From NCBI RefSeq assembly GCF_000764305.2, contig NW_025941306.1, forward strand, positions 124,001 to 188,000: a DNA stretch of 64,000 bases, in the 5' to 3' direction. The translations under genes were made by a program, and so were the position numbers. The DNA comes from Hyalella azteca. Lineage: Eukaryota; Arthropoda; Malacostraca; Amphipoda; Hyalellidae. Below are positions 10,001-56,155 of this stretch, in pieces; position 1 is the stretch's first letter, and every line of letters starts with the position of its first letter. Under the pieces are notes generated by a model. The model saw only the letters and a list, made by a program, of their open reading frames with translations. It was not told the origin of the DNA and did no database searches.

Positions 10001-13000
10001 ATATGTGAGCAGTTAATTTATGAATTATTCACTTCTCTGAGTCGTTGCAAGTCGAGCGTCTTGAGGTGCGGCGCCTGCCTGACGGCGTCACCGAGACAGA
10101 CGAGGTCGGCGATGGTGAGGTAGAACTGAGGCTGGTCCAGACTGAGCGTCTGCAGCCGCGACTCCGGCAGCGCAGCGAACAGGTAGTGGAACACAGACTT
10201 GTGTTCGCTCGTCACGCACAGAGGCAGCGGCAGGCGCGTCTCGCCTGCATAAATAGCAACTAATTATTGATATTGTAAATAAAAAATATGTTGCTAGTGT
10301 TTTTGCCTGAAGCAATATCACCCAACCAATTATCGATTGAGTAAATCACTGTGAGATGATACTTGTATGGCGGTTTTAGTGTTTATTAGGCCGGAGGCCT
10401 CTCGCCGATTCTCAACATTGCAGAGCATCCACAGCTTGTTGCGGGCTTGAACTCGCAACTCACTGCTCCAATTCTGCTGTGCTTAACCGCCCGGCCTCCC
10501 TGCCGATTCTGACCAGAAACTGGCGCATAGAGCTGGGATCGAACCCGCGCCTCTTTGCGCCAATCTTGGTACTCTGAACTTTAACCACTGAGCCACCCTG
10601 CCCTTTTATAATTTTTTGCTTCGCATGAACCTCGTTCACATCCTTGTTCAAAAGATAAATGAACGCAGCAGTAGCGCTGGGGAGTATAAGTTAAGAATAG
10701 CAGCATGCAATACAATTGAAAGCATAATTATGGAAGCTATGACGAGACGCAGGATAACTGTCGTGAATTACGTGCGCGGTGGAACTTAGAAACAAAATTG
10801 TTGTTGAAGATCGCGTCTCGCCTGAAAACAATGTAGGTGATTACGACTAGAAACATCAAAACGTTGCTTATACATTAGGTAGTAGAGTGTAGGTAATAAT
10901 ATTAATGTGAATTAAACCCAAATAATTAATCCTACAAAACGTGAGGCTAAAGCCATTAAAACTTATCATTGAATTGTGCCTGCAATATATGCATTCTTCC
11001 ACTCACTTGCCCTGATGAACCAATAATGGCGCGCCTGTGGCACCTTCTTGATGTCGTCTCCCTTGACGTCAAATAGGAAGGGGAATTCAGTGCACGGGTG
11101 AAGCGCGGGGGTGGCCGCCCCCACGCTCTGGGTGTCCTCACTGCTGCTGTACCCCGCCTCGGCACTCCCATTCCCCACGGAGGACAAAGGTATCGCGGGG
11201 CTTGAAGGCTGGGAGGCGTTAGGGGAGTCGTCGTTGTCGTGTTCGTGCAGCGTGAACTCGTCGTGGCTTTTCTGTGCGGCGTTCTTGCGTATGCGCAGCG
11301 GCTTGAGCTCTGAGCCCATCGTTGAGGGAGAGAAGTCGGCCACCTCATCAGCGCTGCCAAACACGTTCACCAGCAGCGCCTTGTTCATCGACACTGACCA
11401 GCCACAGAATCACGATATTTTAATTTATACTTTTGGAAGCATAAAAATTTCACTTAACCCAAACTGAACATTATAAGAAGTCGGAAATGCAAGCCAGAAG
11501 CAGCTGCATATCCAAGCTTTAGAAAAAAATTGTTCCTTTGCGATCTATCACTAGCACCTTACTTTATTATTCTTGTAAATGTAGGTAAGTGCACCCGAAC
11601 TTTTAAAAGACAACACAAACAGACATTAAATAGTTTTTTATATTAGGTGTTCTGTAATGCTTTGCTGCGGGGAGGATATAAAATACCTATATTACAATAT
11701 ATATTAGGTATTCTGATATGTTCTACGGATATAAAATATATTATAGCGGGCTAACATATTAGCATACTAAATAGCTCTGCTGCAGGGTAACGGTAGCGAG
11801 TTAGTATTAAAAAGATTGTAAATAAGAGAGTCTCTATGAAAGCTTATAAGCTTCTGATGGAGAAGGGATGAGTGAATGCTAAGTCACTAACGTCAAGGAG
11901 TAGGAATATAAAAGTGAAGAAAATGCCAAGGTGTTTCGCAGTTTCTCCATTGCTTTGGAGGCCAATTTCATCAAAAATCGAAAATTTTTCAAAAGTGGAT
12001 CATTTTTCAATCATTAGAGGAAAACCAAAATTTACATACATGGAAGACTTTAAAAATCAAGAGCGAAAAAATGACCAAGGTAACTAAAACCACAATCGAT
12101 TAAAAATTTCGAAGTTTTTTTTTTAATGATACGTTTTCAAGGTCCTTGGCCTGTTCTTTCAGTATTGATGTGTTAATTTCTTCCGTGTAAATTTGGTCTT
12201 TTATCAATTAATTATATTTGTATTCATAAAGTTTCTGAAATGATGATGGAATATGTATTACCGTACTGACGATGATATGGTACCTACATGTATTGTATAC
12301 TGTACAAATAATTTGTTTGTTACATTTTTGGTTCACCTCAGATTTAAGAGAATCAACGAAATAAATAAATAATGAAGAAGTTTGCATTTCCCCGTAACAT
12401 TTTTGGTGGTGCCTGTCAATATCCCTTACTGATTTAAGAATCGCATTTCTGTGACTATTAAGCTCCATCCACCACTCCACCGTCCACCACTCCACCACTC
12501 CACTAAAATATCTTCTAATGCACTCACCGAATCGTCAATGGTACTGGCGATCTCAAAGGAATTCTTGAGATGCTTGCCAAGATCGATCTTCATGTCGCGG
12601 AACTCGAGGATCTTGAGTCCCTTCTTGGAGTACAGGTGATGGATGTCGCTGAAGAACATGAGCAATTTGTCTTCGGTGAAGTGGGCACCGTCTTGTTTAG
12701 CTCGAATCTTTATGTTCTTTACACTTCCGTTCAGATGCAGAGCTTTGAAGAAAGCACTGAGTTGCTCCGCTGAGGCTTCGACAAACGAGCTTTCTTGGTC
12801 CGGATTGGAGCTTTTGATTCTCCATACAAGCTCCAGCGAATGCAATTTGCTGAATTTTTCCGGAAGCAAATGCGTCCAGCCTTCAATGTGAGCCTCGTTG
12901 GTAGACAGCACAACTGATTCTTGGTCCAGCAGACGAGCGATGATTCTCTTGTTGGCCTGGTGCGGCCCAGCTTCTTTCAGCAACGCCAGAAGTGTCAATT

Positions 13001-16000
13001 CGGGCAAATTTTGTAATCGTGGGTACCTAGTGATGGAAAAAAGCCGATGTGCGTAAGAGGAGAGAATTCCAGCTGTAAATGGTAGCACTTCCGAGTCTTT
13101 CCGTTCCAAAAGAGACGCGAATTTCCAGCACTGGCGGCAGCCACAGCGACAGCGACGAATGTGGTTCGCCATGTGCAGGGCGGCCAAATATTCAACGAAG
13201 GTTTGGTGCACAGGCTTCCAGAACTTCTGTACCTGAACACGCAAAGCATCGCTTTCATCTTCATTGTAGAGGAATCCTAACTGGCAGATGTCTTCGAAAT
13301 GAGGAACTGTCCTCAAATCTTCGTCGCTGAAGCGATGTCTGTCACTCTTGATGGCCTGAACGCAAAGTTTGCCGAGATGGTCGAAAGCTTGTTGGTATTC
13401 TGCGGGTAAACCGTCCATTTCAGCATTGGCTTCTCGGTTCCTCGACTTCTTCCACTTGATGAGGCACAGCATGATCTTGTGGAGCATATCAGACATGCTG
13501 TCCGGCAGCTCCTTGTTGGCGTTGTCGCTCTCATATAACATGCACAGCAGCACGCAGAACAAAGGCCTCTCCGCTAGCTTCCTGTACTTGGGATGTCGCG
13601 CAAGAATTTCCTGAAGAGACTCGCCACAGTTGCTGTCCTTGACGATATCGAAGTATTTCTCGATGAACTTCCACATTTGGTGCTCGTCGAAGCCCTTGAC
13701 GACGAGTCTCGTGGCAAGGCACTGCAGAGCCGCGGGGCGGGAGGTCACCAGGACGCGGCTGTTGGGGAAGTCCTGCCCGTTGATGAGGTTCTGAACGTCA
13801 CATTTGTCGTACTGCCCCATCTCGTCGTAGCCGTCCAGGATGAATAATATCGCCTTCTCGTACTTACGCCAGTAATCCCATACTTGACGAAACCTTGGGG
13901 ATCAAAGAGGAAAAGTTAATGATCGTTATATATAATATAATAATATGTTCGTTACACAGCATTCAAGCATCTCACGGGAATCATTAGATCCCACAAGGAG
14001 CGCGTAAAAAATTGACATTTTATTCAGCACACAAAAGTTCAGTATACGGAAAAGTTTCTCCGTGCCCCGTGTCAATCCATGGAGCTTTTCTTCGCGCGTT
14101 TCGCTTATTTTGTTGGAAGCAAAAATTGCTCAATGCTTGAGCTCACTTCTCCGGGTCGAAGTAGGAAGGTAGGATCTCGTCCTGGATGTACTGCTCGATG
14201 CTGCCCTGGTAGTCGCTCAGGGAAATGAGCAGCACGAGTCTGAAGTGGCCGAGGTCGCCGCCCTCCGCCCACTCCTGCGCCAGGCGGGCAGACAGCAACG
14301 TCTTGCCCATCCCGGCCTCCCCCTCCACCAGGAAACGTGTCTGCCAAAATCGCGGGTTTATCAGATACATATTACAATATATGTAATATGTCCATTGAAA
14401 TACACGAAAACACCATCTACTGTTGATTGAACACCTGAAAAAGACTCTTTATTGCAGAGACATGCGGAGAAAATACTCCATTACAACTGTCGTTCGAAAG
14501 CTCGAAAACCATATATTATATGATATCCAATAATTTCTCTGTTGCCAACAGATGCGCGTATGCTTAAACTGAATATGACATACAGAAGATAGCACAGCTA
14601 ACAGTGGTGTGAGGCGCTGTGTGTCGGTCGAAATATCATGTCGGTTTTATTGAATATCCTAAACAGAAAACGACAACAAACCGAGCCCAGCCTCCTAACA
14701 CTTTTCGAAGTTCATGCGGCTAAATTCTTTGTCTACTGACGATAATTCTAGCTACTGTTCTTTGAAGTTACGACTAATATTAACGACAGTTAAATTACAA
14801 GTAGAAAAGCGTTAAAAGTTCCGTTAGAGCTCGTAGGTGCAGGTGGGTACCTCGCTGTCGGCGGTGCGGAGCAGCTGGGAGAGGTCCACGGCGGTGGTGG
14901 TGGGCAGCCCGCGGCGGTCCACGGAGAAGATGCGCGGGTCAAGGTAATAGTCCTCCAGGGGCGCGATCTGCGGGGGTTGAGATGGGGGGTGGTGAGACGG
15001 GGGGTAATGAGATGTATGTAATGTAGTAGTAAGGTTTCTGAGTGCCACCAGGCGCCTGAGTGCCATTAGGCGTCTGAGTGCCACCAGGCGTCTGAGTGCC
15101 ACCAGGCGCCAGAGTGCCACCAGGCGCCAGAGTGCCACCAGGCGCCAGAGTGCCACCAGGCGCCAGAGTGCCACCAGGCGCCAGAGTGCCACCAGGCGCC
15201 AGAGTGCCACCAGCTCACCAGGCGTCCGAGGTGCCAGGGCAGCAGCGGTGACCGCGAGCGCTGACGGTAGCGGCGCTGCAGGATCTCGTGGAACATGACC
15301 ACGGCTTCGTCCAGACCTGCGGGGGAGGAGGGGTGTGGGTGATCGTGATATGGGCGCTGATGAATGCGTTTGTAATAATATATAATAATCAGTCAGAACT
15401 TTCTACATACCAGACTTAAACGTTGAAGCCGATGAATATTTCTGTCTCATGGATACTCTGAGACAGAACCTACGTTGACGAAAAGGTTCTCGGATGAACA
15501 AATTAACGATTTCATTGATCATCAACATAGGTTTCATATCAAAAAGCTCCCTGGTCGCACACAAACAGTGAAAAGATGAATTAAACTCGTCACACGGCCG
15601 TCACTAGCTGTTTATGAACACCACCAAGACGGCTACGTGAGAAATATGATCAAGTCGAGGATAAAAATGCCATCATTCGACGTTAAGAAAACCTTTTTCT
15701 CTTTATAAACATTTTGTTAAAAGTCTGCGTCAGTGGAGAATATAGTTTCTCGAATATTGAACTGCTGCGTGGGAACTTTGAAACTGCGAAAAACAGGCTT
15801 CCACTAGATTCAATGGAATTTAAAAAAGGCTATCCCTTAATGAAAATCAACTCGTTAAAATTTTTAATCGATTCTATTTACTACAAATGATGTGCTAACT
15901 TGTGATTGAAAATTATACCGATTAAAAAATTAAATTATGTGAGCTTTAAATATTCCTATTACTCGAAAGAACCATGCTTGGCACTAGTTTAGCCGTCTTC

Positions 16001-19000
16001 GTACTCGATTGTTTTCACGTTTTTCACGTTAAGAATTGAAAAAAATTCAAATTGAATCCAAAGTTTATCGGACGACGCCTTTATTTTAAATTAATATTAT
16101 TCGCAGCGCTCTACTACGTATACTGTCTCGCACAATTCTTGGGCAACCTATTAGTATCCAGCGACTTAGGTCACATTACGTTTAATAATTCATAATTGAA
16201 TAGTAGATATATGAATATTCAGGTAGTATAACCTAAAAAATCAGGCCGAAGTTTCAAAAAAATGTCGATTGAAAATGTAAAATTACGCTGATAATCACAT
16301 TTCTTTACTTTCCAAAGGCATTGCTTCACCTCAAAAATTATTTTACCGGAACATCACTAGACGGTGATTTTGAAAGGTGTACATGTAACAAAACTGATAA
16401 TTGTACAGCCATTATCAGTTTGCGTAAAGGAAGGGAAAGCATTTTTTACACATCAGTTTGCGTAAAGGGAAGTGCGTAAAAAGCTGTTTTTCGTTCAACC
16501 CTAAGCTAGGGCAACTATGGGATAGCCAGGCAATCTGCCAGTAACTGCTCACCGGCTTGGATTTCCATTCGGCGATCTCCTATTTTGAATCATCCGCTAT
16601 TACGTTATTGATTACTGGATGATTTTTAAAATCACAATGGTATTAATTCTTTGGCATGAATATCGATCAAAGTGCAAAAGGTTTAGAGAATATTTAGGGT
16701 TGCCAAATGCAAATATTTTATTAAAAACATGATTCTTTTGGTAATAATGAAAAATTATAAAATAAATAAAGAGATAAAAATACGAGGCTGCAATAACCTA
16801 CCTTGCAGGGCTGGTGCCGGGGAGGCGGCGTGGCGACACGACCCATCCCGACAGCCCGTCGCGCACGACTGACAAAAACCACGATATTTCTGATCAAACT
16901 TCAGCGCATGATATAAGTTCAATGTATAACGCGTACTAAAGGCATGGCATAGCAATGAAACTGCGAATAGCAATGAATGTACAGCATAAATGTGATGCTT
17001 GAGCATATATTGAAGTATAACACAAATTTTCATGCATAACAAGAAGTTGGAGAACAAGACTGAGCCACGAGTGTTGTTCTCCGAGTGTTGTTCTCACCTT
17101 ACGGCCGCAGTTGGTGTACGTGATCACGATTTGAGTGCCATTGTGTATTTTAGAGTTGACGAATGTGGGTTGCCCGCCAGTGTGTGCCAGGGGCAGCCCG
17201 CTGGGGGAGAGAGGACTCCTGGGGGACAGCGTGTGGTCCCGAACGGCTGGCAGAGACGGCTGATCACCATCTGGGACGGAAGAGACACGCATCGTTCACT
17301 GGATGACGTATGGTTATGGCCAGCAAGTAAGTAAGAACATTTAATGTAGTATAAACATTGTTCGTAAATTATACGTGTATTAGATGAGGAACGACACGTG
17401 ACGTTAACTGTAAATCCTCAAGGCTGACCGATTGTATAAAATCTGAGCACGAACGCGACCGTATTGATGGCGTGACCTATTGAGACCGGTCCTGTGAGAT
17501 GGCGTGACCTATCGAGACCGGTCCTGTGAGATGGCGTGACCTATCGAGACCGGTCCTGTGAGATGGCGTGACCTATAGGTGGCGTGACCTATTGAGACCG
17601 GTCCTGTGAGGTGGCGGGACCTATTGAGACCGGTCCTGTGAGGTGGCGTGACCTATTGAGACCGGTCCTGTGAGGTGGCGGGACCTATTGAGACCGGTCC
17701 TGTGAGATGGCGTGACCTATTGAGACCGGTCCTGTGAGGTGGCGTGACCTATTGAGACCGGTCCTGTGAGATGGCGTGACCTATTGAGACCGGTCCTGTG
17801 AGGTGGCGTGACCTATTGAGACCGGTCCTGTGAGGTGGCGTGACCTATTGAGACCGGTCCTGTGAGATGGCGTAAGCCGACCTGCGCCGAGGCATGATGG
17901 CGTGGAGTGGGGGAGTTAATGCGTACCGTGGGGTGGAGCGGACTGGGGGATGGGGGAAGACATGGACTTGCTGACGCCCCTGGGGGAAGGGCTGGCGCCC
18001 CTCAGACGCGGGGAAGGCACCGCGTCGGCGGTGAGGCTGTGATCCAGGGGCAATAACACCTGACACGCGAGCATAGCATATAAAAAATATTATTATCATA
18101 ATTTGTAGTAGGTAATATGAGTGTTAGCTAAAATTACGCTTCTTTAATACTTATTACAAGTGATATTGTTTGATACGTAATTTGATACGTAAAATACGTA
18201 AATACGTATTGTTTGATACGTAAAATACGTAATTTTGCTAAAAAAAATACTATGAAAATCATTGGCAATGAACCATTCATTCATAGAATTTCTACGTTTA
18301 AATAAGAAATTTTTGATTAATTACAATAGTTATGAATTTATAAGAATTTTGCTGTGAGTGACAGAGATCTCAGTGAGTTGTGACATGTGGAGTGAGGCCA
18401 GCAGGGCACGGCGTCAGAGAGTCACCAGAGAGGCCACACTCACGCTGCCGTTGCTTGTGGCCTCGACGGGGCCGTGGGGAGTTATTTGTATGTGCAGGGC
18501 CTTCTGGTCCCCAGGGGGGAGAGGGGAGGACGACACACCCACACTCTCATGGCTACCTGCGTCTGGAACGTGAAACTTGAATAAAGAGTGGCTTTTGCGC
18601 TGCTTGAGGACAGTTTTTGATGGATAACAAGACATTTTTCACTTGAAGCCTATTTAGAATTGTCGCTTGTGATAAATAATCTACAAATTGCTTCAGTAGC
18701 ATAAAAAGTGTTCGAAAAATATCGTTTGATACTTGACTATATAACCTCAAGTAATTAATAATGAATTTCTTTCTCTGCCACAGCTGCTTGTTGATGCTAT
18801 TCAACAACACATCAGTAAATTGGCTGGCAGGCAAGGTTCCAGCTATGAGTAATGTGTCAATGGAAGTGTGCCATTAGGCCTCAAGGTAGGGATAATAATG
18901 ATGATGTTTGATGTATCCGAACAAGGGATAATCTGAGGCTGGACTGATGATATTTGATCTATCGGAAGAAAGGTTAATCTTTGGCTGGATTGATGATATT

Positions 19001-19413
19001 CGATATATCCGAACAAGGGTTAAAGTCTGATGCTGGTCTGATAATAGTTGATCTATCCGAACAAGGGTTAATCTGAGGCTGGAATGATGATATTTGATCC
19101 ATCCGAATAAGGGTTATTGGCTGAAGTTTCTATCAAACAATATCACTTGTAATAAGTATTAAAGAAACACACCTCGGATGTTGATGACGGGAGTCTCGGG
19201 TGTCGGAGATGCCACGATCTTGGCGCCGAACTGCACCTCAGAATTGCTCACGTTCATCACGGCGCCCGCCATGTTAAAATGGAACGGATTCCCTGAAATT
19301 TCGTTCAAATCGAACGCCGGGGACTGGCGGTCCCCAGCCGGAGCAGTCGACGGGCTGGGGGCGCAGAGCCCCAAGAGTTCCTCGTCTCCAGGTTGTAACT
19401 GAATCTCCGTCAT
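6885..19413 (-). CDS. NLR-type receptor: RHIM-like N-terminus, NACHT, leucine-rich repeats
   Basis: A 16-exon gene whose exon phases agree at every junction except one (see exon 10). It encodes about 1385 residues. Residues 1-245 are a Pro/Ser-rich region holding a RHIM-like motif, V-Q-F-G at 60-63 in NVSNSEVQFGAKIV, and a second Asn-rich beta-prone stretch (NGTQIVITYTN, about 208-218). Residues 246-316 resemble the pre-NACHT linker of invertebrate NLRs (SPLLPW, then APLEDYY). The NACHT domain follows: Walker A GEAGMGKT (323-330), Walker B FILDGYDE (398-405), sensor 1 VLVTSRPAAL (about 428-437) and the winged-helix/HD2 signature VHQTFVEYLAALHMA. Leucine-rich repeats run from about residue 690 to 1327. 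No CARD, Pyrin, TIR or death domain is seen. By family, such proteins are cytosolic sensors that oligomerise on ligand binding. The RHIM-like motif suggests amyloid-type signalling, which is inference. All catalytic motifs are intact and there are no in-frame stops, so the gene appears functional. Confidence 0.88.
7195..7402 (+). repeat. 24-bp minisatellite in NLR intron 15
   Basis: About eight copies of ATAGAAAACGATATCTAAGA plus CTAA, with several diverged middle copies. Confidence 0.9.
7519..7942 (-). CDS. NLR exon 15 (LRRs)
   Basis: Acceptor CGTTCCCACCAG, 424 bases, donor GTTACG. Several LRRs: LVTLDLSASLS, LLRDLTLNSWQF, NIKDVKLHNVN, SLESVSVCFYTV. Phase 2 in, phase 0 out. Confidence 0.87.
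8341..8640 (-). repeat. 42-bp minisatellite starting at the exon 14 donor
   Basis: Seven copies of a 42-base unit (plus strand ACAGACCGGTCTGCGAAGTA, then ACAATTCCAGCTGTCACAAG, CA). The array ends at base 8640, the first intron base. Each copy carries GGTCTGTTGC, like the real donor. In the exon frame it encodes a 14-residue unit of the form CDSWNCYFADRSVA without stops. Confidence 0.92.
8641..8718 (-). CDS. NLR exon 14 (LRR)
   Basis: Acceptor CGCTGTGCAG, 78 bases, donor GTCTGT. With its neighbours it reads LTSLNLAEVELVDVG ... LPALRGFTSLVTLDLS, a good LRR register. The frame also stays open through the following 42-bp repeats. Confidence 0.75.
8940..9075 (-). repeat. 30-bp minisatellite spanning the exon 13 donor
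   Basis: About four and a half copies of GAGGTGAGGGCACTACACTC plus TCACTTGAGG. The first copy overlaps the last bases of exon 13, so each unit holds another CCTCAA|GTGAGA donor. Confidence 0.92.
9053..9258 (-). CDS. NLR exon 13 (LRR)
   Basis: Acceptor CACCGAGCAG, 206 bases, donor GTGAGA after CCTCAA. Contains VQELSLRHCTVRFG and ends SALTSL, continued by N-L-A-E-V-E-L in exon 14. The donor is the first of several copies in the adjoining 30-bp minisatellite. Confidence 0.78.
9591..9770 (-). CDS. NLR exon 12 (LRR)
   Basis: Acceptor TTTTCGTTCAG, 180 bases, donor GTACGG. Contains IETVKLSSD and ALRNNTSLRTLHCDHWNF, a ribonuclease-inhibitor-like LRR pattern. Phase 0 at both ends. Confidence 0.85.
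10033..10244 (-). CDS. NLR exon 11 (LRR)
   Basis: Acceptor TATTTATGCAG, 212 bases, donor GTGAAT. LRR strands SRLQTLSLDQ and HLKTLDLQRL. Phase 1 in, phase 0 out. Confidence 0.82.
10382..10603 (-). mobile_element. tRNA-derived SINE, copy A (in NLR intron 10)
   Basis: On the minus strand the element starts at about 10603 with GCAGGGTGGCTCAGTGGTTA. It has a Pol III A box (TGGCTCAGTGG) and B box (GGTTCGATCCC) at tRNA-like spacing, then an unrelated body. A second copy, 51159-51379, aligns over the whole length, and a 3' fragment lies at 23917-23983. Open frames here are spurious. Confidence 0.9.
11007..11393 (-). CDS. NLR exon 10 (acidic, Ser-rich spacer; 5' border uncertain)
   Basis: Open frame from VNVFGSADEVADFS to ARHYWFIRA, donor GTGAGTGG, phase 1 out. 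The obvious acceptor (CTGGTCAG, exon from 11393) needs a phase-1 partner, but exon 9 ends in phase 0. An acceptor 14 bases inside (AACAAG, exon from 11379) would restore the frame; alternatively a small exon between 11.4 and 12.5 kb was missed. The encoded segment is acidic and Ser-rich (HEHDNDDSPNASQPSS). Confidence 0.65.
12528..13893 (-). CDS. NLR exon 9 (Walker B, sensor, winged helix, first LRRs)
   Basis: Large exon of 1366 bases. Acceptor TTGATCCCCAAG; donor GTGAGTGC after GACGATTCG. Holds AILFILDGYDEM (Walker B), RVLVTSRPAAL (sensor 1), ERPLFCVLLCMLY, the QTFVEYLAALHMA signature, a Cys cluster RRCRCGCRQC, and early leucine-rich strands (KLHSLELVW, LKILEFRDM). The open frame continues 34 codons past the donor, but that part is low complexity (VEWWSGG). 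Confidence 0.93.
14147..14340 (-). CDS. NLR exon 8 (NACHT Walker A)
   Basis: Acceptor GATTTTGGCAG, 194 bases, donor GTGAGC. It contains FLVEGEAGMGKTLLSARLAQ, an intact P-loop, then FRLVLLISLSDYQ (NACHT strand 2). Phase 0 in, phase 2 out. Confidence 0.92.
14851..14967 (-). CDS. NLR exon 7 (pre-NACHT linker)
   Basis: Acceptor CAACCCCCGCAG, 117 bases, donor GTACCC. Starts IAPLEDYYLDPRIF, matching the PLE-x-x-Y linker found just before many NACHT domains. Phase 0 at both ends. Confidence 0.82.
15035..15218 (-). repeat. 18-bp minisatellite at the exon 6 donor
   Basis: Ten or so copies of GGCGCCTGGTGGCACTCT on the minus strand, beginning at the exon 6 donor (CGCCTG|GTGAGC). Each unit contains CGCCTGGTG, a near copy of the splice junction. 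Period 18 keeps frames open (WWHSGA repeats). Confidence 0.92.
15219..15316 (-). CDS. NLR exon 6 (pre-NACHT helix)
   Basis: Acceptor CCCTCCCGCAG, 98 bases, donor GTGAGC. Encodes LDEAVVMFHEILQRRYRQRS then RSPLLPWHLGRL, typical of the segment before a NACHT domain. An 18-bp minisatellite starts right at its donor. Confidence 0.8.
16802..16868 (-). CDS. NLR exon 5
   Basis: Acceptor TTTTTGTCAG, 67 bases, donor GTAGGT. Encodes SCATGCRDGSCRHAASPAPA, with three cysteines. Phase 0 in, phase 1 out. Confidence 0.68.
17098..17270 (-). CDS. NLR exon 4 (second Asn-rich beta-prone motif)
   Basis: Acceptor CTTCCGTCCCAG, 173 bases, donor GTGAGAAC. Contains FVNSKIHNGTQIVITYTNCG, which resembles amyloid-forming segments but lacks the exact RHIM tetrad. 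Phase 1 in, phase 0 out. Confidence 0.8.
17465..17872 (+). repeat. 32-bp minisatellite in NLR intron 3
   Basis: About 13 copies of CCTATTGAGACCGGTCCTGT plus GAGATGGCGTGA, with A/G and T/G variants; one copy is shortened near 17570. Confidence 0.93.
17927..18059 (-). CDS. NLR exon 3
   Basis: Acceptor CGTGTCAG, 133 bases, donor GTACGC. Encodes VLLPLDHSLTADAV... to QSAPPH, Ser/Pro/Arg rich and probably disordered. Phase 0 in, phase 1 out. Only this frame links exons 2 and 4. Confidence 0.7.
18444..18562 (-). CDS. NLR exon 2
   Basis: Acceptor CACGTTCCAG, 119 bases, donor GTGAGT. The split codon gives Asp, then AGSHESVG... to ATSNGS. It contains ALHIQITPHG, a short beta-prone stretch. Phase 1 in, phase 0 out. 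Confidence 0.75.
18890..19115 (+). repeat. About 60-bp tandem repeat in NLR intron 1
   Basis: Four diverged copies of GATGATATTTGATCTATCCG plus AACAAGGGTTAATCTGAGGC-type units. Confidence 0.85.
19173..19413 (-). CDS. NLR exon 1 (start codon, RHIM-like motif)
   Basis: ATG at 19413; 80 codons plus one base; donor GTGTGT after CCGAG. It holds NVSNSEVQFGAKIVAS, whose V-Q-F-G fits the [V/I]-Q-x-G core of RHIMs, with Asn/Ser on the left as in RIPK1 and RIPK3. Confidence 0.8.
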
Positions 19414-45928: not shown

Positions 45929-46506
45929 GGAAGTGGTCAGTTAAGTCTCCAAGCACTCTCGATCGTGCATAATCAGTTGTCCACAGATACACAGCATTTG
46001 AGATATTGATACACAGCTTTTCGTTGGGAGACCTAGAGGGTTAGTATAACATAGTAGTCTCAGCGTCTAATGTTAGGGCTGTTCCTGATTATTATTATCC
46101 TGAGAAGCAGTTATCGTGGCGTCTGGTTCATACGAACTTCGAGGACAAGTTACACATAAGTTTAATTGCAAGCAAAAATGCGAGATGTGAGAAAGGATGA
46201 GAACGGATAAATATGATTAAGCACTTGATTCCTTGGCTCTACTAAATAGTTCCGTCCTTAGGCATTGACGAAACACCTGCAACAAAGGAGCCAATGTTAT
46301 GGAAGCCGGTAGACTGTTCCAGGTTCTGGCGGAGGCGACCAGGAGCGCTCTGTCGCCGACGGTAGATAAACGAGTAGATGGAACAACGAGGTCCACTGTT
46401 GATGACGAGCGCAGTCGTCTTCTAGAAGAAAGATCCGAAACGCGCTGAAGACATTACTTTAGATAAGAAGGCTCCAGACCCTGAAGGAATCGGAACGCCA
46501 GAACAG
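45929..46506. other. Region 5' of the C2 gene
   Basis: No exon or element is recognised. If the start codon at 45928 is right, the 5' UTR or promoter of the C2 gene lies here. Confidence 0.5.
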
Positions 46507-48640
46507 TGACCTTGCTTGAACTGCGTGCGCTGCCTCATGCGCAGTCAGTGAAGATGGTGCAATATCGGCGTCATATGGTCGAATTTTCGCTTATTGCACA
46601 CGATTCGCGCAGCAACATTCATTACGGATTGCAGTTTATTAAGTGCCGTGGTCAGAAGTCCATATATATAGAGTGTTGAATTACCACAGTCCAATCTATA
46701 TGGTAATGACGAAAACGCAGGCATAACGAACTCGTTGCCCACGCGAATAGGGTTGGCCGGAATCTGATGCTGGCGCCAAGAAATCTCAAACAAAATTAAG
46801 TCATTTTTTCATTTTTTGGTGCATTGAGCTGGAGCCGGTTGGAGCGCATCCAGTCTGAGACACTATTCTTTAATGCCGAAGATACGATACTATACTATAC
46901 TATACTATACTATACTATACTATACTATACTATACTATACTATACTATACTATACTATACTATACTCTGTGGTACGTCGCAAGTGACCAACGATGGCCTT
47001 AGATTATAGAAGAGTTCCCGCGTCGAACGCATTGAAATCTTTTGCTGAGATAAGACTCGAACCACCGCAACACTGTGCCGCGCAGGCAGAATGATATATC
47101 AAGTCTACGCAATAAAGTGACGAGGTCGTGTATCAAATACTGTTGACAGTAGATTTAAGCAAGCCAGTGTCGCAATGTCGCAATGTCGCCGCTGTCTAGT
47201 GCTCGCAGTATTTCTGAAAGCTCCTTTAGCACAGGTGGTTTCCGTCGAGTGGAGATGACGGTATGCAGACTAGAGGCGAGGCATGAGACCGGACTGCTGA
47301 AGATGGTTATTCAACTGTCTGGCCACAACGCGTTCAAGGAATTTGATAAAATCGACAGGTTGGAGGTCGAAATTATTTGGGATCAGAAGCGTCAAGGTTT
47401 TTTTTTAATAGAGGCGTAATGTAAGCCGATTTGAAGTTCACTGAAACAACACCGTCAGTGAAGCAGCGGTTGAAAAATTCGACAAGAAAAGAGGCATGGG
47501 ATTACGACATTTTAACAAACGACGTCGGCAGCGGATCGCTGGCACACTGCTTGTTAGGCAGCGCAAGCACTGCAACGATGACATCGTCAGTTGCATCGGA
47601 AGTGAATTATTGGAGCACGCAGTCGAATGGGCACGGCGCTAATGTTGCAGAGGGAGCATCGGCTAACGACGCTCGCACAGCGGAAATTTTGTTTTAAAAA
47701 ACCGCATAGAATGCCTCCACGATTACAACACCCGAAGCATCTGTATGACCTCTTCCCATAAGTTTATCTAGTAAACGCCACAGCACCCGAAGGTCGCTGC
47801 GTTGCGCGTCGACTCTCTGGCGCCAAAATGACTCTCTTTTAGATCGAAGAAAGTCAAGATTATTGACCCGCGCATCTCGCCAGGTGGAGGCCACAGCAAC
47901 TGCAGTAGCAGGATTGCCGCGTCCATTCGCCCGATAGACAGCTCTCTGGGGCATTCGAACTTTCTTCTTCGAGGCCCGACATTCGTCGTCGAACCATGAG
48001 ACGGGGATACGTTGGGTTACCCGAACTGTGCGAGCAAGAATGAGGTCATCGAGTGCACAGGTCTAATCCGGTATTGTAGAGTTGCGCCAGATCGTTAACT
48101 GACAGCGCCAACCATGAGTCAGGCCGATCTAGTCAGGGCGACTGCAGTTTTTCGCGTAAAGCATCGCCGTCGAGACGTACCACGGTTTACAGGTAACGGT
48201 TTTTTATGCTGGCACCGGACGCACACATGACACCGTCCACTGAAGTAGTCGATGGTCGGATATTGCAATCACGATGATGTCAACTGGCTGAATTTGAAGG
48301 TCAGCACGCGTGATGACAACGTCCAGCAGTCCGCCCATATCGTGCGTAGGCAAGGTCACGTGACAAACGTTGCCGAAGGTGGAACGCAGGTCGTTCAGCT
48401 GACGCGATGATGGGTCATCGACGCGATCTAGTCGAACGTTTATTTCGCGGGTGATAAGAACATGATCGGGGAAAGTCACAAGTCATCGCTCAATTCGACG
48501 AAAAAATCACGTGCCACAGCAACGGATCGGGGACGATATATGGTGACTGCAACGCCAGTAAACGAGGCCGAGTAGTCATTTCGTCGAGCAAGCTAACCGC
48601 TAACGGCGCCAAGAATAGCAGCCAGATTCAGTTTGGGTAA
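46507..48640 (-). mobile_element. Decayed CR1/L2-type LINE (endonuclease and reverse transcriptase pieces)
   Basis: Minus-strand frames in the correct order for a LINE ORF2. Endonuclease: TGVAVTIYRPRSVA, then EINVRLDRVDDPSSRQLNDL, PTHDMGGLLDVVITR and ISDHRLLQW (48640-48210). Linker: SKRESFWRQRVDAQRSDLRV then LWRLLDKLMGRG (47954-47694). RT N-terminal part: NHLQQSGL-like and LKELSEILRALDSGDIA (about 47540-47150). RT end: ALNKLQSVMNVAARIVCNKR then KFDHMTPILHHLH (46793-46545). Frameshifts and stops separate the pieces, and the RT catalytic core is absent. Confidence 0.85.
46862..46970 (+). mobile_element. LINE 3' tail with (TATAC)n end
   Basis: TATTCTTTAATGCCGAAGAT then ACGATACTATAC and about 15 pentamers. 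The same tail follows a LINE C-terminal coding piece in the duplicate at 54.6-54.96 kb, which shows it to be a LINE 3' end inserted opposite to the surrounding LINE. Confidence 0.75.
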
Positions 48641-54118: not shown

Positions 54119-55533
54119 AGTGACCTAGCTTGAACTGCGTGCGCTGCCTCATGCGCAGTCAGTGAAGATGGTGCAATATCGGCGTCATATGGTCGAATTT
54201 TCGCTTATTGCACACGATTCGCGCAGCAACATTCATTACGGATTGCAGTTTATTAAGTGCCGTGGTCAGAAGTCCATATATATAGAGTGTTGAATTACCA
54301 CAGTCCAATCTATATGGTAATGACGAAAACGCAGGCATAACGAACTCGTTGCCCACGCGAATAGGGTTGGCCGGAATCTGATGCTGGCGCCAAGAAATCT
54401 CAAACAAAATTAAGTCATTTTTTCATTTTTTGGTGCATTGAGCTGGAGCCGGTTGGAGCGCATCCAGTCTGAGACTGCGTCCATGCAGACAGACATCCGG
54501 TCCTGCAACGCTGCAGCGTCAGCTGGTGCACTGTAGCCATAAATTTGGATATCGTCGGCGCACGTATGTGGATTCAAACTATGTGCAATTCATCGACAGT
54601 ATATAATAGAAAAAATATCGGGCCGAGGACTAGCTGTCTCTTCGAGTCACTGACATGTGGAACAGCCTCCCTGAAGATATTGTTGACGCTCCGAGTATGA
54701 ACGCGTTCAAGACTAGACAAGGCCATGCAGGAGCATATGTTTAGTCTTAAAATGCCTCGTACCCTACGGAACAACTGATATCTAGAATTGATTTTAAACC
54801 TACCGTCCGTTGAAAAGATCTGATCAAAAGGCCAGTCTAGTGAAGAAAAACACAAGAATCGGCGACAGGCCTATCCAGGCCTATTCTTTAATGCCGAAGA
54901 TACGATACTATACTATACTATACTATACTATACTATACTATACTATACTATACTACGCAAGTGACCAACGATGGCCTTAGATTATAGAAGAGTTCCCGCG
55001 TCGAACGCATTGAAATCTTTTGCTGAGATAAGACTCGAACCACCGCAACACTGTGCCGCGCAGGCAGAATGATATATCAAGTCTACGCAATAAAGTGACG
55101 AGGTCGTGTATCAAATACTGTTGACAGTAGATTTAAGCAAGCCAGTGTCGCAATGTCGCAATGTCGCCGCTGTCTAGTGCTCGCAGTATTTCTGAAAGCT
55201 CCTTTAGCACAGGTGGTTTCCGTCGAGTGGAGATGACGGTATGCAGACTAGAGGCGAGGCATGAGACCGGACTGCTGAAGATGGTTATTCAACTGTCTGG
55301 CCACAACGCGTTCAAGGAATTTGATAAAATCGACAGGTTGGAGGTCGAAATTATTTGGGATCAGAAGCGTCAAGGTTTTTTTTTAATAGAGGCGTAATGT
55401 AAGCCGATTTGAAGTTCACTGAAACAACACCGTCAGTGAAGCAGCGGTTGAAAAATTCGACAAGAAAAGAGGCATGGGATTACGACATTTTAACAAACGA
55501 CGTCGGCAGCGGATCGCTGGCACACTGCTTGTT
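54119..55533 (-). repeat. Second copy of the LINE segment at 46507-47556
   Basis: Nearly identical to 46507-47556 on both sides of an extra block of about 413 bases (about 54474-54886); the 82- and 78-codon frames are the same in both copies. The extra block holds the RT core on the minus strand (LVLGPIFFLLYTVD, then C-A-D-D-I-Q-I-Y-G in place of Y-A-D-D) and a plus-strand LINE end (LRVTDMWNSLPEDIVDAPSM). Similarity stops at 55533. Confidence 0.92.
54640..54958 (+). mobile_element. LINE C-terminal fragment with 3' UTR and (TATAC)n tail
   Basis: SLRVTDMWNSLPEDIVDAPS then MNAFKTRQ, a 3' UTR matching 27.6-27.75 kb, then TATTCTTTAATGCCGAAGAT and about ten TATAC pentamers. It is inserted in opposite orientation within the minus-strand LINE. 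Confidence 0.8.
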
Positions 55534-56155
55534 ATATTGATCATTGGGCATCGGCTAAAACGATCATAAATCGCATGCGCTTGTGTCGATCATTAGGCAT
55601 CGGCCACTTTGATTGCAAAGAGCGTGCATCAGTGTTGATCATTGGGCATCGACTAAAACGATCGTAAATCGTGTGCACTTGTGTCGATCATTAAGCATCG
55701 GCCACTTTGATCGCAGAGAGCGCTCATCAGTGTTGATCATTGGGCATCAGCTAAACTGACCGTAAATCACGTGCGCCTCTGTCAATCATTAGGCATCGGC
55801 CACTTTGATTGCAAAGAGCACGCATCAGTGTTGATCATTGGGCATCATCTAAACCAATCGTAAATTGCGTGCGCTTGTGTCGTTCATTAGGCAACGGCCA
55901 CTTTGATCGCAGAGAGCGCGCTTCTGTGTTGATCATTGGGCATTGGCTAAAACGATCGTAAATCGGGTGCGCTTGTGTCGATCATTAGGCATCGGCCACT
56001 TTGATCGCAGAGAGCGCGCTTCTGTCTGTCTCTTATACACATCTAGATGTGTATAAGAGACAGGTTTGTGACGATTGCCAGGCATCAATCGTAAAGTTAG
56101 TGTGCCTGTGTTGATCATGCAGCATTGGCGAGGGATGCACTTCCGTTTTTAGCAA
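55534..56155 (+). repeat. 97-bp satellite, dimer of about 48-bp halves
   Basis: Five or so units at about 97-base spacing, each with GATCATTGGGCATCGGCTAA in one half and CGATCATTAGGCATCGGCCA in the other. A degenerate unit continues right of the adapter at 56026-56063 (TTGATCATGCAGCATTGGCG), so the adapter interrupts or edges the array. Confidence 0.9.
56026..56063. other. Complete 38-bp Nextera mate-pair junction adapter
   Basis: Same head-to-head mosaic ends as at 54079-54116. It lies inside the 97-bp satellite. Confidence 0.97.

Follow-up and report, generated by a model that had tools for sequence, protein, structure and literature searches.

A crustacean NACHT-LRR receptor gene with two RHIM-like motifs in a predicted-disordered N-terminus

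The NACHT-LRR gene and its product

The minus strand of the window, that is the whole 64-kb stretch of Hyalella azteca DNA that was analysed, carries a gene for a NACHT-LRR receptor whose exons 1–9 can be joined in phase through plausible splice sites. By tblastn these exons are collinear with a single annotated protein of the talitrid amphipod Trinorchestia longiramus (P0040) at 60–90% identity per exon, and the joined gene model is 78% identical to this protein. These matches point to an amphipod origin of the window, probably close to the talitrids. Exon 1 (19173–19413; all exons are on the minus strand and all identities refer to P0040) extends from the ATG to the donor GAG/GTGTGT and corresponds to residues 1–81 (60% identity, E 1.4e-23). 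Its product, read from 19413 to 19173, begins with MTEIQ, carries NVSNSEVQFGAKIVASP further on and contains the first RHIM-like motif (motif 1). Exon 2 (18444–18562, phase 1 to 0, 66% identity over 44 residues) encodes ALHIQITPHG and is followed by exon 3 (17927–18059, acceptor GTGTCAG/GTGTTA, phase 0 to 1, 68% over 41 residues). Exon 4 (17098–17270, phase 1 to 0, 61% over 62 residues, E 3.6e-15) encodes NGTQIVITYTN and contains the second RHIM-like motif (motif 3). A linker exon 5 (16802–16868, phase 0 to 1, 62% over 26 residues, E 0.001) leads to the pre-NACHT exons 6 (15219–15316, phase 1 to 0, 67%) and 7 (14851–14967, 85%). Exon 8 (14147–14340, 89%) encodes the NACHT domain with the Walker A motif GEAGMGKT, and exon 9 (12528–13893, 90% over 451 residues) the remaining NACHT domain and the subsequent helical region. 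Seven LRR exons with approximate boundaries lie between 6885 and 11393 (about 11393–11007, 10244–10033, 9770–9591, 9258–9052, 8718–8641, 7942–7519 and 7061–6885, minus strand) as collinear tblastn matches to residues 909–1464. For P0040 residues 836–908, an LRR stretch, no match was found within the window, the flanking exons on either side of 11393–12528 being matched; the stretch is either absent from the assembly or has been lost by the gene.

A 16-base microexon as exon 3 as well as mutually exclusive use of exons 2 and 4 were considered and dropped, as Trinorchestia shows a 133-base exon 3. The exon phases within exons 1–5 (16802–19413) alternate between 1 and 0, so that the exon pairs 2+3, 3+4 and 4+5 are skippable in frame. 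Judged from the sequence, isoforms with a single RHIM-like motif are possible. Some relatives of the receptor carry an isoform annotation. Minisatellites are present in the intron between exons 3 and 4 (17466–17873, 32-base unit, about 12 copies), in the intron between exons 6 and 7 (15040–15213, 18-base unit, about 10 copies) and elsewhere in the window. The window gave no Rfam and no tRNA matches.

The original prediction described the product as a NACHT-LRR protein devoid of CARD, Pyrin, TIR and death domains, and the domain searches agree with this description. The joined model matches the Pfam NACHT family PF05729 with an E value of 4.8e-23 (82.2 bits vs a cut-off of 26.7). That LRRs are joined to the NACHT domain is indicated by the collinear matches to P0040 and by repeated strand–helix units in the predicted structure of the Homarus orthologue. 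A Pfam search with a 206-residue N-terminal query, which contained a provisional exon 3, as did one protein search and one alignment, returned nothing at E <= 10, and thus no death-fold, CARD, PYD or TIR domain. In several more distant lancelet NACHT proteins, the precomputed Pfam lists name DED or Death domains. Orthologous predicted proteins join the exon 1 sequence and the NACHT domain in one chain, which supports the linkage of both that had been presumed. An additional protein search gained no further crustacean orthologues.

In an AlphaFold2 model of the Homarus orthologue, based on 13 sequences, residues 1–425 have neither helix nor strand and a pLDDT <50 except for residue 394; this disorder prediction was made for Homarus only and the alignment is shallow across the N-terminal region. 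Beyond about residue 427 the model is a folded NLR with the first predicted helix at residues 428–447, and motif 3 lies shortly before, at approximately residues 399–415. NLRC4 was the top PDB fold match of this model in a Foldseek search, and NOD2 was among the best. Unlike the receptor of the window, NLRC4 and NOD2 have CARDs at the N-terminus.

Conserved blocks of the N-terminal region

Eleven N-termini were readable, those of the window gene, Trinorchestia, Armadillidium, Homarus, Procambarus, Cherax, Panulirus, Palaemon, a penaeid (identified as such because it matches Penaeus vannamei P0008), Halocaridina and Oratosquilla. Left out of the counts were P0006, which starts inside motif 3, P0008 and P0009, which start past the region, P0011, the start of which is short and seems unrelated, as well as the fragments P0001, P0002, P0004, P0010 and P0012.

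Three blocks stand out when the window gene is compared with Trinorchestia. Motif 1, FNMAGAVMNVSNSEVQFGAKIVASP (19204–19278, minus strand), with the tetrad VQFG at 19225–19236, is identical at 20 of 25 positions. Block 2, KALHIQITPHGPVEA (18459–18503, minus strand), is identical at 12 of 15 positions. For motif 3, VNSKIHNGTQIVITYTNCGRK (17098–17160, minus strand), which has IHNG at the tetrad position, 22 of 23 residues are identical when the next two residues from exon 5 are included. Outside of the three blocks only 100 of 183 N-terminal residues are identical. Motifs 1 and 3 occupy one exon each in the window gene.

In the alignment of the N-termini motif 1 is recognisable in ten and motif 3 present in nine of the eleven sequences, window included, and both motifs span Amphipoda, Isopoda and Decapoda. 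The motif 1 block is found in nine of the ten readable relatives; had related NLRs lost the VQFG block, the RHIM-like reading of exon 1 would have been refuted. The consensus of motif 1 is roughly N-[IVL]-x-x-S-x-[VI]-[QHV]-[FI]-G, and that of motif 3 roughly [IVLM]-x-x-G-[TP]-Q-[IV]-[IV] with an invariant glycine and G[TP]Q[IV][IV] in all nine copies. Motif 3 has the highest block score of the N-terminal alignment (2.35), followed by motif 1 (1.64) and the next block (1.43). Exon 4 had originally been described as a second beta-prone stretch; beyond that, it carries what appears to be a second copy of the motif, and no other block of the N-terminus is as well conserved. In a profile-to-profile comparison motifs 1 and 3 match each other with a probability of 89% and an E value of 2.2e-6, and thus the protein appears to hold two copies. 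No clear motif 3 was found in the aligned Halocaridina sequence. The mantis shrimp Oratosquilla (P0013) has neither motif and a short N-terminus with a stretch similar to block 2, which reflects either a true loss or an incomplete gene model, annotated as isoform X2.

The block in exon 2 has residues in all eleven rows of the alignment and is typically LHINI-like; weaker blocks also exist. This block is conserved and strand-like but differs from motifs 1 and 3, has no tetrad and was rejected as a RHIM.

Resemblance of the motifs to RHIMs

The tetrads of motif 1 are VQFG (two sequences), VHIG (four of ten: Homarus, Procambarus, Cherax and Halocaridina), VHFG, IHFG, VVIG and VVFG. Their glycine is invariant, and the core phi-x-phi-G is present in all ten copies, if valine is counted as x in two of them. 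The exact sequence VQFG occurs in motif 1 of the window gene and Trinorchestia only. At the tetrad position of motif 3 we find IHNG in the two amphipods and VQMG, LVVG, VVIG (twice), MVLG, VILG and VVVG in the remaining copies; the core is kept in seven of nine copies and broken in the two amphipod copies. The tetrad glutamine is present in two of ten copies of motif 1 (window and Trinorchestia) and one of nine of motif 3 (Armadillidium), with H, V or I elsewhere.

The four-residue core as such was rejected as evidence: the pattern [VI]Q[VILCF]G occurs eight times when all six frames of the window are read, and 8.0 occurrences are expected from 20 first-order Markov shuffles. As the bare core is at chance level, the evidence rests on its conservation in the relatives. 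A longer pattern that describes exons 1 and 4 was seen twice vs 0.05 times expected, and this pattern was written after both sites were known. A further site on the plus strand at 48626 (NSSQIQFG) was set aside because a stop codon follows directly in its frame; by appearance, the other strand could hold remnants of a retroelement.

For a comparison with known motifs the mean BLOSUM scores of peptides from RIPK1 and RIPK3 (PMC9918910) and from BASS3 of Frankia (PMC8086366) were combined into a profile; these and all other papers are cited for the parts of their text that were available. The profile was slid over an alignment of ten sequences from which Oratosquilla was excluded. It scores 16.0 at motif 1 and 10.5 at motif 3, and the next place reaches 2.0. 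When the order of the profile was permuted, 3 of 5000 profiles reached 16.0 and 134 of 5000 reached 10.5, and 10.5 was not reached by any of 712 profiles taken from the NACHT/LRR region in three orthologues. Each of the three peptides taken singly picks the same two places, and the reversed profile scores below the forward one at motifs 1 and 3 (7.3 and 6.2). The individual sequences were also scanned with the three peptides, using 200 shuffles for each sequence. Here 8 of 11 sequences had their best match at motif 1 or 3, and p was <= 0.05 for seven of these eight and 0.23 for Panulirus; another place scored best in Palaemon (p 0.14), in the penaeid (0.05) and in Oratosquilla (0.32). With the block kept in the relatives and the profile peaking on motif 1, the original reading of exon 1 as RHIM-like is supported.

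Nevertheless, this likeness is confined to the tetrad: once the tetrad was masked, the similarity of the flanks was no better than that of permuted profiles, of which 1094 of 3000 did as well. In the profile-to-profile comparison, motif 1 matches the three RHIM/BASS3 peptides weakly (probability 12%, E 0.0023). No Pfam RHIM match at E <= 10 was obtained for the N-terminus of the window gene, five relatives and six motif peptides, where P0006 is without most of its N-terminus, P0013 is without the motifs and most matches with E values beyond roughly 0.1 are removed by the HMMER filters. Sequence searches of the PDB with the motifs gave no matches. Thus, at the level of sequence, the likeness is that of a RHIM tetrad which is conserved and present twice within a tail predicted to be disordered, and not of a full-length RHIM signature.

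Related systems and a possible mode of signalling

Several known receptors and adaptors share features with the receptor described here. PGRP-LC, PGRP-LE and IMD of insects likewise act in arthropod immunity. In Drosophila, the cryptic RHIMs of PGRP-LC and PGRP-LE are described as lacking the conserved glutamine and still forming amyloid, and IMD, Relish and Pirk are reported to have cryptic RHIMs as well (PMC9496462). In Aedes the cryptic RHIM tetrad of PGRP-LE and IMD is VHIG, the tetrad of four decapod copies of motif 1, and PGRP-LC keeps the glutamine and has N at the third tetrad place, as does motif 3 of the amphipods (IHNG); cells overexpressing Aedes PGRP-LE, IMD and PGRP-LC were reported as thioflavin-positive (PMC9531809). 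In the available accounts, the tetrad glutamine is often absent from the insect proteins, too. As a difference, the PGRP receptors bind peptidoglycan through their PGRP domain, whereas the NACHT-LRR part would be the sensor here.

The vertebrate proteins RIPK1, RIPK3, ZBP1 and TRIF share the phi-x-phi-G tetrad, and ZBP1 also has two RHIMs (PMC12119088). According to the same source VQFG is one of the natural tetrads of RIPK3, occurring among others in rodents and bats; most tetrad variants of human RIPK3 gave NF-kB activation below wild type, VQFG not being one of the two failing variants named in the available text, which also states that a RIPK1 homologue was not found in arthropods (PMC12119088). 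The vertebrate RHIM proteins differ in their other domains, and in most of them the glutamine is conserved, in contrast to two of ten copies of motif 1 here. The fungal PP-motif NLRs, such as PNT1 with HELLP from Podospora and Chaetomium, are described as NLRs with an N-terminal RHIM-like motif that template a partner, the amyloid fold being passed on to effectors (PMC7885112, PMC12881547). In contrast to the NACHT/LRR receptor and its animal host, the fungal proteins have NB-ARC/TPR domains and a neighbouring effector gene. When the 64-kb window was scanned in all six frames, an approach that an intron-split motif would escape, the longer motif pattern was found in exons 1 and 4 only. Among the matches listed in the open-access literature, none reported an animal NLR that carries a RHIM-like motif. 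Amyloid-motif NLRs are known outside animals and RHIM proteins within animals, and both appear joined in the receptor described here.

The receptor is best read as an animal NLR whose N-terminus is of the amyloid type; such an architecture is known in fungi and bacteria. Since the RHIM-like repeats are conserved from amphipods to lobsters, the receptor likely signals through amyloid-like fibres, comparable to some fungal receptors. With moderate confidence we suggest that the two RHIM-like motifs in the predicted-disordered N-terminus of this crustacean NACHT-LRR receptor serve to seed an amyloid-type polymer. The first element of this proposal comes from the sequence comparison, in which motifs 1 and 3 are the best conserved N-terminal blocks and resemble each other as well as RHIM tetrads. 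As can be expected from NLR biology, binding of a ligand to the LRRs would open the receptor, whereupon the NACHT domain would oligomerise and gather several N-termini. By analogy to the fungal NLRs and the PGRP receptors of Drosophila, the clustered motifs could then adopt a cross-beta structure and template this fold in a partner that has such a motif as well. An animal NLR with N-terminal RHIM-like motifs would be the missing middle in this comparison.

Motifs 1 and 3 might instead be short linear docking motifs of a disordered tail, which attach to one partner by contributing a beta-strand and form no amyloid. Docking motifs commonly look like this, as a small number of short conserved stretches within a disordered region; block 2 is conserved without being RHIM-like, and the restriction of the RHIM similarity to the tetrad is compatible with docking as well. 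On the other hand, each of the two motifs resembles a copy of the other and outscores all remaining places of the alignment on the RHIM profile, and the HET-S-type fungal amyloids are likewise built on short motifs that are repeated, as described in the available text of PMC7885112. We regard pure docking as rather unlikely. The conserved V-x-[FI]-G block could also be RHIM-like by coincidence and have an unrelated function, in line with the chance frequency of the four-residue core in the window, the lack of signal in the flanks and the missing Pfam RHIM call. This we consider improbable, as the observed score is reached by 3 of 5000 permuted and none of 712 real profiles and as the tetrad of four decapods is the one given for Aedes PGRP-LE and IMD. 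Less probable still is an intramolecular role, in which the blocks would pack as strands on the NACHT domain or the LRRs and hold the receptor closed, as suggested by the position of motif 3 shortly before the first predicted helix (in Homarus ~399–415 vs 428–447) and by a NACHT–LRR contact reported for a shrimp NLR (PMC12370184, in part), since AlphaFold2 leaves both blocks unstructured, albeit from an alignment of 13 sequences that is shallow there.

If the motifs seed an amyloid-type polymer, the likeliest partner would be IMD, or else Relish, the insect versions of which carry cryptic RHIMs. IMD is the best candidate because malacostracans retain it (as a single gene, along with Dredd and Relish), whereas a search for PGRPs was negative for the majority of the malacostracan species covered by the available text of PMC5437397; the same text posits an unidentified protein upstream of IMD. 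The receptor thus bears on the question of what acts upstream of IMD in these animals. Against a link to IMD, older work reported the RHIM-like motif of PGRP-LC to be dispensable for IMD binding (PMC2483946, PMC3724876), and four putative amidase-type PGRPs are listed for the talitrid amphipod Talitrus, Proasellus and Homarus (PMC5437397). In the available part of the latter study FADD, IKKgamma and TAB2 are given as not found in Malacostraca. The original prediction had already named the IMD pathway as a possibility. That this malacostracan NLR is wired into IMD/NF-kB signalling via twin cryptic RHIMs, as the posited activator of IMD after loss of PGRP-LC/LE and as the first amyloid-templating NLR of an animal, and thereby links the NLR signalosomes of fungi and bacteria to RHIM signalling of animals, is in our opinion a tentative and on the whole doubtful extension of the proposal.

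A further system for comparison is LvNLRC of Penaeus vannamei, a crustacean NACHT-LRR protein with a long N-terminus and without CARD (PMC12370184, in part). It probably belongs to the same family as the window gene, as the published tree takes in NLRs of Hyalella, Armadillidium, Chionoecetes and Homarus. It is at most a candidate for a one-to-one orthologue of the window gene, as the landmark residues printed in the available text fit neither of the penaeid sequences compared. This one functional study of a shrimp NLR mapped binding of STING and cyclophilin A to the NACHT domain, and the words RHIM and amyloid do not occur in the paper (PMC12370184). Knockdown of LvNLRC raised the expression of LvVago5, an interferon-like gene, according to the same source; this would fit a negative regulator and lends no support to the idea of signalling through IMD.

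Two features of the window lie apart from the receptor gene. The window contains two repeat pairs, one of 357 bases at 46505–46861 and 54119–54475 (99.7% identical, 7.6 kb apart) and one of 635 bases at 46922–47556 and 54900–55534 (98.7% identical, 8.0 kb apart), which stem from either a recent duplication or a mobile element. Positions 1–15 of the window read GTGTATAAGAGACAG, which we take to be the mosaic end of the Nextera transposase, and as the window starts with this sequence the contig end looks like untrimmed adapter.
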